Shown: piece after piece, positions 33,374 to 42,084 of the stretch | Numbering within the stretch: position 1 is the stretch's first letter | Layout: every line of letters starts with the position of its first letter | Source: Candidatus Omnitrophota bacterium | GTDB lineage: Bacteria; Omnitrophota; Gorgyraeia; Duberdicusellales; 4484-171 | DNA length: 43,112 bases | Reading direction: 5' to 3' | Assembly (NCBI GenBank): GCA_024542985.1 | Contig: JAMXCX010000009.1 | Coordinates: 1-43,112 of the forward strand | The notes under the pieces: model-generated | What the model saw: the letters and a program-made list of their open reading frames with translations, nothing else | Told to the model about the DNA's origin: nothing | The model's database searches: none | Program-made: the position numbers and the translations under genes

Positions 33374-34363
33374 ATGTATACTTTAGGCATAGAAACATCT
33401 TGCGATGAGACTTCTTGCGCAATTTTAGAAAAGCGTAAGGTTTTGTCCAACATTACAATATCTTCTTTAAAAGAACACAAAAAGTATGGTGGGGTAGTTC
33501 CTGAAATTGCTACGCGTGCTCACCTCAAGAATATCGATAAGGTTTTAGAGCTTAGCCAGAGAAAAGCAGGTATACTTTTGAAAAAAATAGATTTAATTTC
33601 TGTAACATATAAGCCAGGTTTGTTCGGAGCATTGGTCGTGGGGCTAAATTTCGCCAAAGCTTTATCTTTAGCTATTAATAGGCCTTTTGTCGGGGTTAAT
33701 CACCTTCACGCACATCTTTTTGCGCCTTTTTTAAATCAGAAAAGAAGAATCAAATTTCCCTTTCTAGGATTGGTTGTGTCTGGAGGGCATACCGGAATAT
33801 ACCGAGTGGATGATTTTGACAAAATAAAAATTTTAGGACAAACCAGGGATGATGCTTGCGGAGAAGTTTTTGACAAAGTAGCTAAAGCTTATGGGTTAGG
33901 TTATCCCGGAGGGCCTATCATTGACAGGCTTTTTAAACTTAAATATAAGAATGATTTTCGTTTTAAGTGCGGTAGAATAGGATTTGATTTTAGCTTTAGC
34001 GGGATAAAGACAGCGCTTATTTATAAAAAAATGGAGATGGAAAAAAAGGGAACTTTTGGCTTAAAAGTACGCCAACGGTTGGTTTCATCTTTCCAGTATG
34101 CGGCTTTAGAGACAATTATAGCTATTGTTTTAGACGCTAAGAATAAATTAAAAATAAAAAGTGTGGTCTGCGGCGGCGGAGTTATCGCTAATGAGTATTT
34201 GCGCAAGCGCCTAAAGGAGGAAAAAAGTAAAGGAATAGATCTTTTTATTGCTCCCAAAGAGTATTCGGGTGATAACGCAGCAATGGTTGCAGGATTAGGT
34301 TTTTATCTGTATAATAAGGGATACCAAAACAGCAATATAGGTTTAAAAGCGGAGGCCAATTAG
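33374..34363 (+). CDS. tsaD: tRNA N6-adenosine threonylcarbamoyltransferase
   Basis: LGIETSCDETSCAI, VNHLHAHLFAPF, LVVSGGHTGIY, CGGGVIANEYLR. Confidence 0.97.
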   Translation: MYTLGIETSCDETSCAILEKRKVLSNITISSLKEHKKYGGVVPEIATRAHLKNIDKVLELSQRKAGILLKKIDLISVTYKPGLFGALVVGLNFAKALSLAINRPFVGVNHLHAHLFAPFLNQKRRIKFPFLGLVVSGGHTGIYRVDDFDKIKILGQTRDDACGEVFDKVAKAYGLGYPGGPIIDRLFKLKYKNDFRFKCGRIGFDFSFSGIKTALIYKKMEMEKKGTFGLKVRQRLVSSFQYAALETIIAIVLDAKNKLKIKSVVCGGGVIANEYLRKRLKEEKSKGIDLFIAPKEYSGDNAAMVAGLGFYLYNKGYQNSNIGLKAEAN

Positions 34364-34789
34364 ATGATAGGTATGTTTTCTATGATACTGCGGTTGATTG
34401 TTGCCTTTATTTTCGGCAGTGTTCTCGGTTATGAGAGGGAAAAAAAGAGGGGAAGTGCGGGCTTAAGGACTCATATATTGGTCTGTATGGGGTCAGCATT
34501 AATAATGTTGACTTCTTTGCATCTTTATGATATGTATCAAGGTAAGGCTTCTGTTGATCCGGGAAGAATTGCCGCAGGCGTAGTCACCGGTATTGGGTTT
34601 TTAGGCGCAGGCACTATTATTAGAAGTAAAGAAGGCGTTAAGGGCCTGACTACCGCAGCGAGTCTTTGGATTAGTGCGGCAATTGGTTTAGCCGTAGGCT
34701 GCGGATATATAAGCGCTGCTTTAATCACCACAGTGATTACTTATCTATCTCTTTCGTATCTTAAAAAGGTAGAGCAAGAGATGCATTAG
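34364..34789 (+). CDS. MgtC/SapB family membrane protein
   Basis: GSVLGYEREKKRGSAGLRTHILVCMGSALIMLTS, GIGFLGAGTIIRSKEGVKGLTTAASLWISAAIGLAVGCG. Confidence 0.94.
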   Translation: MIGMFSMILRLIVAFIFGSVLGYEREKKRGSAGLRTHILVCMGSALIMLTSLHLYDMYQGKASVDPGRIAAGVVTGIGFLGAGTIIRSKEGVKGLTTAASLWISAAIGLAVGCGYISAALITTVITYLSLSYLKKVEQEMH

Positions 34790-34830
34790 ATAGATTTTGT
34801 TTGAAAGGATAATATTAGGGGGTGAATGGT

Positions 34831-35322
34831 ATGAGTAAACGAAGAGACGAAGACAAAATACTTGATGTTAGCGCTTCAATGCGGGGGAGTCTGGTTTTTT
34901 CCGATCCGGTAAATTTGCGAATAAATGGCAAATTTGAGGGCAACCTGTCAACCAAAGGGGTTTTGATCATCGGCAACGAGGCGGATATAAAGGCTGATAT
35001 TATAGGAGAAGAAATAACTATTTCTGGTACAGTAAAAGGGAAAATTAAAGCAACAGTAAGCCTTAAGTTCACATCTACAGCTCATGTAACAGGTGATGTT
35101 GAGATGTATAGGTTTTCCATTGAGGAGGGAGCCATTTTTAACGGCAGATGTAATATGCTTGATGGTAAAATTTCTTTAGAGGAAATATCTGATTATCTTT
35201 CTGTTGAAGAAAGTAAAATTGTCGAATGGGTTGATGATGGTAAAATTCCTGTAGAGAAAGAAGGCAGTAAAATGCTATTTGACCGCAAAAAAGTAGAGCA
35301 GTGGATTGCCCAGAAAACCTAA
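34831..35322 (+). CDS. Bactofilin-like domain fused to C-terminal excisionase/MerR-type HTH (ORF can extend to GTG at 34822)
   Basis: Beta-helix repeats RGSLVFSDPVNLRINGKFEGNLSTKGVLIIGNEADIKADIIGEEITISGTVKGKI, then ISLEEISDYLSVEESKIVEWVDDGKIPVEKEGSKMLFDRKKVEQWI. Confidence 0.85.
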   Translation: MSKRRDEDKILDVSASMRGSLVFSDPVNLRINGKFEGNLSTKGVLIIGNEADIKADIIGEEITISGTVKGKIKATVSLKFTSTAHVTGDVEMYRFSIEEGAIFNGRCNMLDGKISLEEISDYLSVEESKIVEWVDDGKIPVEKEGSKMLFDRKKVEQWIAQKT

Positions 35323-35440
35323 ATTTCTAAAAGTCAGAGATTCAATTCCTAGTTAATTATATCCAAGGTTTGTCGAATAAAAGAGTCAGCAACTCGAAAC
35401 AATAGACGTTTGTAGGGCATAAAACTATTACAGGTGAAAG

Positions 35441-35755
35441 ATGAAAGAAAAACTTCTTGCTACACGTGAGGTTTCTCATATTTTAGGAATTCCGGAAAAA
35501 GATATAATAGACTTAGCCAAAGCCAATCTTATCCCTCATTACAGAGTAGCCGGAGAATTTTTGAGGTTTAAAAGGGAAGATATATCTCGGGTTAAGCCTA
35601 CGATCAAAAAGAAATATAATGTTACTGACAGGAAACACCGCGGGGCGGAAAGGCTAAGAGATTTCTTTTATTTTAATGATTTCTATATTGTTTCTACGGT
35701 GATAATTGCTGTTTTGTTATGGTTTATAGTCAAAGATATAGTTTTTAGTGTCTAA
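35441..35755 (+). CDS. Excisionase-type HTH protein with C-terminal TM anchor
   Basis: LLATREVSHILGIPEKDIIDLAKANLIPHYRVAGEFLRFKREDISR followed by TM FYIVSTVIIAVLLWFIVKDIVF. Confidence 0.85.
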   Translation: MKEKLLATREVSHILGIPEKDIIDLAKANLIPHYRVAGEFLRFKREDISRVKPTIKKKYNVTDRKHRGAERLRDFFYFNDFYIVSTVIIAVLLWFIVKDIVFSV

Positions 35756-40068: not shown

Positions 40069-42084
40069 ATGGTTGATCGAAGAAAATATATAAGAATAAC
40101 TACTGTTTTACCAATTGAATTTTTTGTTATTGATGAGGCCGGTAAAAAAGTTACTCCCTGGCTGCAAGGATTTACCCAGGATATAAGTAGGGGCGGCTTG
40201 TGTATTCAAGTAAACGATTTATGGCGGGGCTTTTGGGATAGATTTAGCTGGCGGGGAGCCCAGCTTGTTTTAAGAATAAATTTTCCTTTTCATAAACAAG
40301 CGGTATCTTTGAAAGTAAAAGTTTCTTGGATGAGTGAATACAAAATCAAAGACTTTACACAATACAAAATAGGAGTAGAGTTTTTAGAATCTGACAAAAA
40401 AACAATTGAAGCTCTTTTTAAATATGCAATAATCAAAAAAAGTGCTCCTTTTATCTTAGGTGGAGTCATTGCTATACTACTTATTTTTTCCTCAACTTTA
40501 TTATTACGCAACATTTCTCTCACTAAAGGAAGTAGGCAGTTAGTAAAAGATTATGTGGGTATTTTGGAGAAAGAAGAAAGTCTAGGAAATATTCTGGCGG
40601 AAGAACGCAAAGGCAAAGTATTTTTTGAAAAGCGGCACCAAGAGCTCAAAGAGATGATAACTATTTTAAAGAGAGAATTATCCCAGAAAATGGAAAGATA
40701 TGAAGCTTTATTGCTTAAAAGAAAAGGCAACTTTTTTTCTGAAGAAATGGATTCTCTTCAGAAAAGGATTTCTTTGCTTGAAACTGAGTTGACAGTTCTG
40801 AAGCGAGAAAGTGAATTTTTAAAGCTCAAAGGAAATGAAAAGAGAAAAGTGGAAGAAGAAATTGGAAAGAAAGTAATGCATATAGAAAAGGAAAGATTGC
40901 AATCTGTCCGTAAAATCGTAAAAGGTATGTATAGTTGGATTAAAAACCGCCAGGATCTTTCTACTGGCTTGGTGTTAAGCTACGAAGGAGACCGTACCCT
41001 AGAGAGGGTATACTTTACCTATGACCAAGCCATAGCTGCCATATTATTTTTGGCAATAGGAGACAAGGATAAGGCTGAGATGATATTAGACTTTTATTTA
41101 AAAAAGGCAAGCAGAGGCGAAGAAATTTATAATGCTTACTATGACCAGCGCCATGTATTTGAATATGTGATTCATAGCGGCCCTAATGCCTGGATAGGCA
41201 TAGCTGCTCTTTGTTATGCCAAAGAGACCGGGAGCCGGAAATATTTAGCAATTGCCGAGAAAGTGGGAGATTTTCTATTTAAAATGATGGCCAAAGGTGA
41301 AGGAGTAAAGGGAGGGCCTAAAGATGAATGGTATTCTACAGAACATAATCTAGATTCTTTTTCTTTTTTCAAGTTATTTTATGAGGTAACTAAAAAAAGA
41401 GAGTATTTAGACGCTGCGGATAAAATCAAGAAATGGATTGCTCAGTATACCTATACCAATTACGGGCCGCCGGTAAGCCGAGGCAAGGGTGATTCAACCA
41501 TAGCCACAGATACTTATGCTTGGTCAATAGCTGCCTTTGGTCCGGCAGCACTTTATTCTTTAAAGATGAATCCAGAAACAATTTTAGAATTTGCTATAGA
41601 AAATTGCGAAGTAGAGGTAGAATTTGTACGTAACGGAGGAGCAATCACGATAAAAGGGTTTGATTTTGCTAAAGTAAAAAATAGCCCTAGAGGAGGGGTA
41701 ATAAGCACTGAGTGGACTTCCCAGATGATTTTAGCTTTAGAAATTATGGCCAGCTATTTTAAAAATAAAAACTTAAACAAATCAGAAGATTATGCCCAAA
41801 GGGCTTTTCTTTATTTTAATGAATTACAAAAAATGATTATAACGTCTCTTTCTAGGGCTGGTAGAGAAGACCCTTGCCTTCCTTATGCTTCTAAGTTCTC
41901 CGTAGATACCGGACATGGCTGGAGAACTTCCCAGGGGAGCAAGACAGGTTCTTTGTCAGCAACAGCATATTTTTTACTCGCCTATTACGGATATAATCCC
42001 TTAAAAGCAAAATTTCTAGACGTCCATCTGAAAAATATTTACGATAAAAAGTTGAATAAGCTAAAAGTATCTTTGAGCCAATAA
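40069..42084 (+). CDS. PilZ domain - TM helix - coiled coil - six-hairpin glycosidase-like (alpha/alpha toroid) protein
   Basis: PilZ RRKYIR...DISRGGL; TM PFILGGVIAILLIFSSTLLL; heptad-rich coiled coil; helical domain with VYFTYDQAIAAILFLAIGD, HSGPNAWIGIAALCYAKETG, EWYSTEHNLDSFSFF. Confidence 0.8.
   Translation: MVDRRKYIRITTVLPIEFFVIDEAGKKVTPWLQGFTQDISRGGLCIQVNDLWRGFWDRFSWRGAQLVLRINFPFHKQAVSLKVKVSWMSEYKIKDFTQYKIGVEFLESDKKTIEALFKYAIIKKSAPFILGGVIAILLIFSSTLLLRNISLTKGSRQLVKDYVGILEKEESLGNILAEERKGKVFFEKRHQELKEMITILKRELSQKMERYEALLLKRKGNFFSEEMDSLQKRISLLETELTVLKRESEFLKLKGNEKRKVEEEIGKKVMHIEKERLQSVRKIVKGMYSWIKNRQDLSTGLVLSYEGDRTLERVYFTYDQAIAAILFLAIGDKDKAEMILDFYLKKASRGEEIYNAYYDQRHVFEYVIHSGPNAWIGIAALCYAKETGSRKYLAIAEKVGDFLFKMMAKGEGVKGGPKDEWYSTEHNLDSFSFFKLFYEVTKKREYLDAADKIKKWIAQYTYTNYGPPVSRGKGDSTIATDTYAWSIAAFGPAALYSLKMNPETILEFAIENCEVEVEFVRNGGAITIKGFDFAKVKNSPRGGVISTEWTSQMILALEIMASYFKNKNLNKSEDYAQRAFLYFNELQKMIITSLSRAGREDPCLPYASKFSVDTGHGWRTSQGSKTGSLSATAYFLLAYYGYNPLKAKFLDVHLKNIYDKKLNKLKVSLSQ

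Follow-up and report, generated by a model that had tools for sequence, protein, structure and literature searches.

The neighbouring genes for bactofilin-HTH and HTH-TM form a module that is conserved in Omnitrophota. The first protein is a bactofilin to which a C-terminal winged helix has been fused, and the second, encoded directly downstream, joins a winged helix of the same class to a C-terminal transmembrane (TM) helix. We lean towards reading the pair as a cytoskeletal module, in which a bactofilin polymer would carry docking winged helices and HTH-TM would be its membrane partner. Bactofilins are scaffold proteins of wide occurrence, with partners known from few species, and a search of a collection of open-access papers gave no account of a winged-helix bactofilin or of an Omnitrophota bactofilin module. 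The pair was analysed in a 43,112-nt stretch of Omnitrophota DNA (the window); its features are listed in Table 1.

The two genes and their domains

The best start of the bactofilin-HTH gene is the ATG at 34831, downstream of AGGGGGTG. The original prediction had both reading frames right but began this one at 34822, which is an in-frame GTG. The protein matches the Pfam families Bactofilin (PF04519; 1.3e-24, 86.7 bits against a curated cut-off of 27.9) and HTH_17 (1.1e-8, also above the curated cut-off), as well as the NCBIfam model 'excise' (6e-11). Its AlphaFold model has a confident beta-helix followed by a winged helix (mean pLDDT 87.8), with BacA (2n3d) and TtBac (6rib) as the nearest folds. 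Pfam, NCBIfam and AlphaFold therefore confirm what had been predicted, a bactofilin-type beta-helix protein with a C-terminal excisionase/MerR-type HTH.

The next gene had been predicted to combine the same kind of HTH with a C-terminal TM helix, and this too was borne out. HTH-TM has an N-terminal winged helix (HTH_17, 9.8e-7), a basic linker and a single C-terminal hydrophobic TM helix, which AlphaFold models as a long helix (pLDDT ~93 over residues 81-100); hhalign relates its HTH to that of bactofilin-HTH (95%, E 4e-8). Both proteins have the winged-helix fold of HTH_17. The nearest solved winged helices for the pair are BldC, RacA and Xis, BldC being the nearest for HTH-TM by both fold and profile. 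Chance does not account for these domains, since both Pfam families are matched by each of the 68 aligned fusion homologues, and HTH_17 by each of the 66 homologues of HTH-TM.

Members of the HTH-TM family lack HTH_25, the RodZ domain, and match HTH_17 instead; no M23 peptidase domain of the LmdC type is found in the 104 aa of HTH-TM, which holds HTH_17 and the TM helix only. The idea that HTH-TM stands in for RodZ was rejected, because MreB and RodZ-like HTH_25 proteins are encoded separately in Omnitrophota. A promoter and terminator scan gave counts below those of shuffled sequences.

Residue F103 of bactofilin-HTH aligns with the polymerisation Phe (F105 in TtBac, F130 in BacA), and 94% of homologues (n = 177) have F or L there. 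The N-terminus of the window protein is MSKRRDEDK, while many other fusions begin with MAFKKK-like sequences that resemble the membrane-targeting peptide (of the type MFSKKKK) and may bind membrane unaided. In HTH-TM the juxtamembrane residues Y77, D80, F81 and Y82 are kept at 97-100%, among the most conserved residues beyond the winged helix, and conservation of this motif hints at an additional membrane-side contact.

Table 1. Features of the bactofilin-HTH/HTH-TM locus in the window
Feature	Position	Strand	Evidence
Bactofilin-HTH protein, 163 aa	34831..35322	+	ORF, Pfam, AlphaFold; homologues in 318/384 phylum genomes
Bactofilin beta-helix domain, residues 10-107, with F103	34858..35151	+	Pfam, AlphaFold, alignment
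C-terminal winged helix HTH_17, residues 115-162, with acidic recognition helix and E132 at the BldC Arg30 position	35173..35316	+	
HTH-TM protein, 104 aa; predicted N-in, tail-anchored	35441..35755	+	
HTH_17 domain of HTH-TM, residues 6-49; nearest solved fold BldC	35456..35587	+	
Juxtamembrane motif DFFYFNDFYI, residues 74-83	35660..35689	+	
C-terminal helix of HTH-TM including the TM segment, residues 80-103	35678..35749	+	
Upstream neighbours marking the syntenic slot: tsaD (33374-34363), mgtC-like gene (34364-34789)	33374..34789	+	

Distribution and gene order

An alignment search (E <= 1e-25) found the fusion in 318 of 384 genomes across Omnitrophota and in 216 of the 249 good ones; it also occurs in a further class, with a match in 45 of 49 genomes. 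HTH-TM matches were present in 367 of the 384 genomes at E <= 1e-3, some of them weak and perhaps to ordinary HTH proteins. Conservation of the pair among relatives had been named as a check on the original prediction, and the pair is indeed conserved: HTH-TM lies directly downstream on the same strand in 208 of 209 distinct fusions, the 209th being cut by a contig edge. The gap between the two genes has a median of 24 nt and is at most 50 nt in 67% of cases.

In the window the pair is preceded by gatA, gatB, a gene like those for C-terminal-processing proteases, tsaD and an mgtC-like gene. Sampled loci with long flanks show synteny across the whole block gatCAB-ctp-tsaD-mgtC-bactofilin-HTH-TM, and in many loci genes resembling those of the Wood-Ljungdahl pathway (named from sequence) follow the pair. 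Since the gatCAB-ctp-tsaD-mgtC block is equally stable, and since HTH-TM persists alone in some lineages, the two genes might be neighbours just because the order of a highly stable operon was inherited, and not be directly linked in function. We judge this improbable, because gene order alone does not explain why both proteins share a degenerate winged-helix class, and because, among the 209 distinct fusions, all those with room downstream were accompanied by HTH-TM.

Outside the phylum, 44 genomes of Auribacterota (the phylum of Candidatus Auribacter) gave no match spanning both parts of the fusion, their bactofilin matches ending with the beta-helix domain or shortly beyond it; two Brevinematales genomes likewise gave no match spanning bactofilin and HTH. 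One Candidatus Auribacter locus (L061, 4814-6486) has three tandem bactofilin-like genes, none of the three with a matching winged helix.

The assembly of the window's genome amounts to 1.57 Mb in 106 contigs, the window lying on contig C106. Two other contigs of this genome hold further bactofilin-HTH copies with internal stops and with no HTH-TM gene (L339, G000:C69, 5664-6128; L340, G000:C59, 6032-6489); the two share 74% DNA identity and are decaying duplicates or contamination. A contig labelled Candidatus Pacebacteria (L030, PFLP01000057.1) carries the Omnitrophota locus and is probably mis-binned; an Omnitrophica locus with seemingly identical proteins (L033) was dropped from both non-redundant sets after it. 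Elsewhere in the window, positions 40069-42084 encode a protein of 671 aa that has a PilZ domain at its N-terminus (3.9e-7) and probably a TM segment and coiled coil; its C-terminal half has weak, sub-threshold similarity to GH76/GH127.

DNA-contact residues

In the original prediction the two HTHs could link DNA or a shared partner to the cell envelope. The two winged helices were mapped onto BldC (contacts per PMC5859096), and as a control we used 30 HTH_17 paralogues, which include one bactofilin-HTH (L296), making the measured contrast slightly smaller rather than larger. The recognition helix has a net charge of -1.1 in bactofilin-HTH and -2.3 in HTH-TM, compared with +1.4 in the paralogues of the same genomes and +3 in BldC. 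At the position of BldC Arg30, whose mutation to Ala abolishes DNA binding (PMC5859096), Glu or Asp is found in 95% of the bactofilin-HTH sequences and in 82% of those of HTH-TM. The preceding residue is Tyr in 93% of the control paralogues, and this Tyr is absent from the bactofilin-HTH and HTH-TM families. Neither family has the basic recognition helix with base-contact residue that marks a DNA-binding HTH_17, and the original prediction had named the lack of a basic recognition helix as telling against it. A MerR-type fold with such losses is known in CbpM, which binds protein and has lost a Tyr and an Arg required for DNA binding (PMC4063869). By these residues, both winged helices look suited to protein rather than DNA.

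A few lineages (family f21) have Arg at the Arg30 position, yet their helix is acidic on average. We rejected the idea that an acidic residue here is tied to the bactofilin partner, because f21 has Arg both with and without that partner, making it a lineage trait.

The bactofilin winged helix and the wing of HTH-TM are oppositely charged. The former is -2.3 overall, with -2.0 and -2.1 in alpha-1 and alpha-2, and HTH-TM has a basic wing (+2.7), a basic linker and an invariant Arg42, so that HTH-TM may bind DNA or lipid weakly. These basic features of HTH-TM, the HTH_17 fold itself, with the DNA binders BldC and RacA among the nearest solved structures, and the scaffolding of ParABS by Myxococcus bactofilins via PadC (PMC5703909) all favour one or both winged helices binding DNA and so joining chromosome, bactofilin and membrane. 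Such a bridge is nevertheless very unlikely, given the net acidic recognition helices, the replacement of base- and phosphate-contact residues that same-genome paralogues keep, and the negative charge of the bactofilin winged helix as a whole. The DNA half of the predicted tether is thus unlikely; a link from cytoskeleton to membrane, or a shared partner, is still the best explanation of the anatomy and conservation of the pair.

HTH-TM without the fusion and coevolution

HTH-TM keeps its slot after tsaD(-mgtC) in lineages where the fusion gene is missing, a situation that the original prediction did not foresee. We found this in G012, G045, G047 and more genomes of families f8, f10, f21 and f36 (loci L155, L156, L157 and L353-L366); G012, G045 and G047 lack any match to Pfam bactofilin genome-wide. 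Because it is kept in lineages lacking the fusion, HTH-TM has a use beyond anchoring bactofilin-HTH.

Coevolution was evaluated by mean-field DCA on 177 bactofilin-HTH/HTH-TM pairs (Meff 127), with within-clade shuffles as control. Among these pairs there was no excess of HTH-HTH couplings, with 10 in the top 50 where 8.1 were expected and shuffles gave 10.9. The top-50 inter-protein score exceeded that of all 60 shuffles, possibly because of residual phylogeny, and some intra-protein contacts were plausible. A single fused reading frame (L051/L153, G284) was rejected as proof of contact, since a run of Ns joins the two genes in an artefact.

Two observations would suit winged helices that bind a common third protein: several families have HTH-TM in its usual slot but no fusion, with the reverse not seen where there was room, and HTH-HTH couplings are not in excess. 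HTH-TM would then serve generally as the membrane receptor, with bactofilin-HTH as a second user that only some lineages have, the two functionally linked with no mutual contact. We regard this as rather unlikely, though less so than the inherited-order or DNA explanations, because no third conserved gene specific to the pair was found, the neighbours being housekeeping or metabolic genes.

Proposed mechanism

In the direct docking that we prefer, bactofilin-HTH would polymerise via its beta-helix domain, as its family and the kept polymerisation residue suggest, and the C-terminal winged helices would be arrayed regularly along the polymer. They look like DNA-binding HTH_17 domains but seem to have been repurposed to dock proteins. 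HTH-TM is predicted to cross the membrane once, and its winged helix, on the cytoplasmic side, is the likeliest docking partner, so that the polymer would be held to this membrane protein or recruit it. The bactofilin winged helix and the wing of HTH-TM carry opposite charges, which fits a direct dock but does not prove one. Same-strand adjacency, synteny, presence throughout the phylum and the acidic recognition helices speak for this reading; the lack of HTH-HTH coupling excess, the retention of HTH-TM in lineages that lack the fusion and the MAFKKK-like N-termini of many fusions speak against it.

A more specific version, which we put forward tentatively as somewhat doubtful, has the two degenerate winged helices, one repeated along the polymer and the other anchored in the membrane, docking heterotypically, perhaps head to tail as in BldC but with no DNA. 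A DNA-binding fold would thereby have become a cytoskeleton-membrane coupler fixed in the phylum. The module may have a role in cell shape or envelope growth. If docking is true, the pair adds another MerR-type fold, besides CbpM, that switched from DNA to protein binding.

Comparison with known systems

The proposed docking agrees with known bactofilin modules, in which one membrane protein serves the bactofilin as client as well as anchor (PMC10945521, PMC12448750). LmdC of Hyphomonas and Rhodospirillum is a single-pass membrane protein whose gene adjoins a bactofilin gene, as that of HTH-TM does, and whose cytoplasmic part binds the polymer (PMC10945521). However, LmdC is an M23 endopeptidase and its binding motif is a beta-hairpin, whereas HTH-TM has no enzymatic domain and the Omnitrophota bactofilin has an added winged helix. 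In Caulobacter, overproduced PbpC can substitute for the membrane-targeting peptide of BacA (PMC12448750), a likeness in that a membrane client is able to supply the bactofilin's membrane attachment; PbpC differs in being a cell wall synthase that binds by a short N-terminal peptide and not by a winged helix.

RodZ, a membrane HTH protein on the MreB filament (PMC3599482), likewise places a membrane-anchored cytoplasmic HTH on a cytoskeletal polymer by protein contact, but its domain is HTH_25 and that of HTH-TM is HTH_17. CbpM shares the MerR-type fold and the loss of DNA-binding residues, and it binds a protein (PMC4063869), but it is the regulator of a J-domain co-chaperone, contains a coiled coil and lacks a TM helix. 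BldC, the closest match to HTH-TM, packs its winged helices head to tail (PMC5859096), but it contacts DNA through basic residues most of which the pair lacks, and it has neither TM helix nor bactofilin.

The proposed module would thus work like BacA-PbpC and LmdC, or like MreB-RodZ, while being built from unrelated parts. An almost uncultured phylum has put a partner-type domain into a bactofilin and kept the matching membrane protein adjacent, which makes a defined protein pair available for testing in laboratory hosts. The pair is a phylum-wide variant of the bactofilin-plus-membrane-partner modules.
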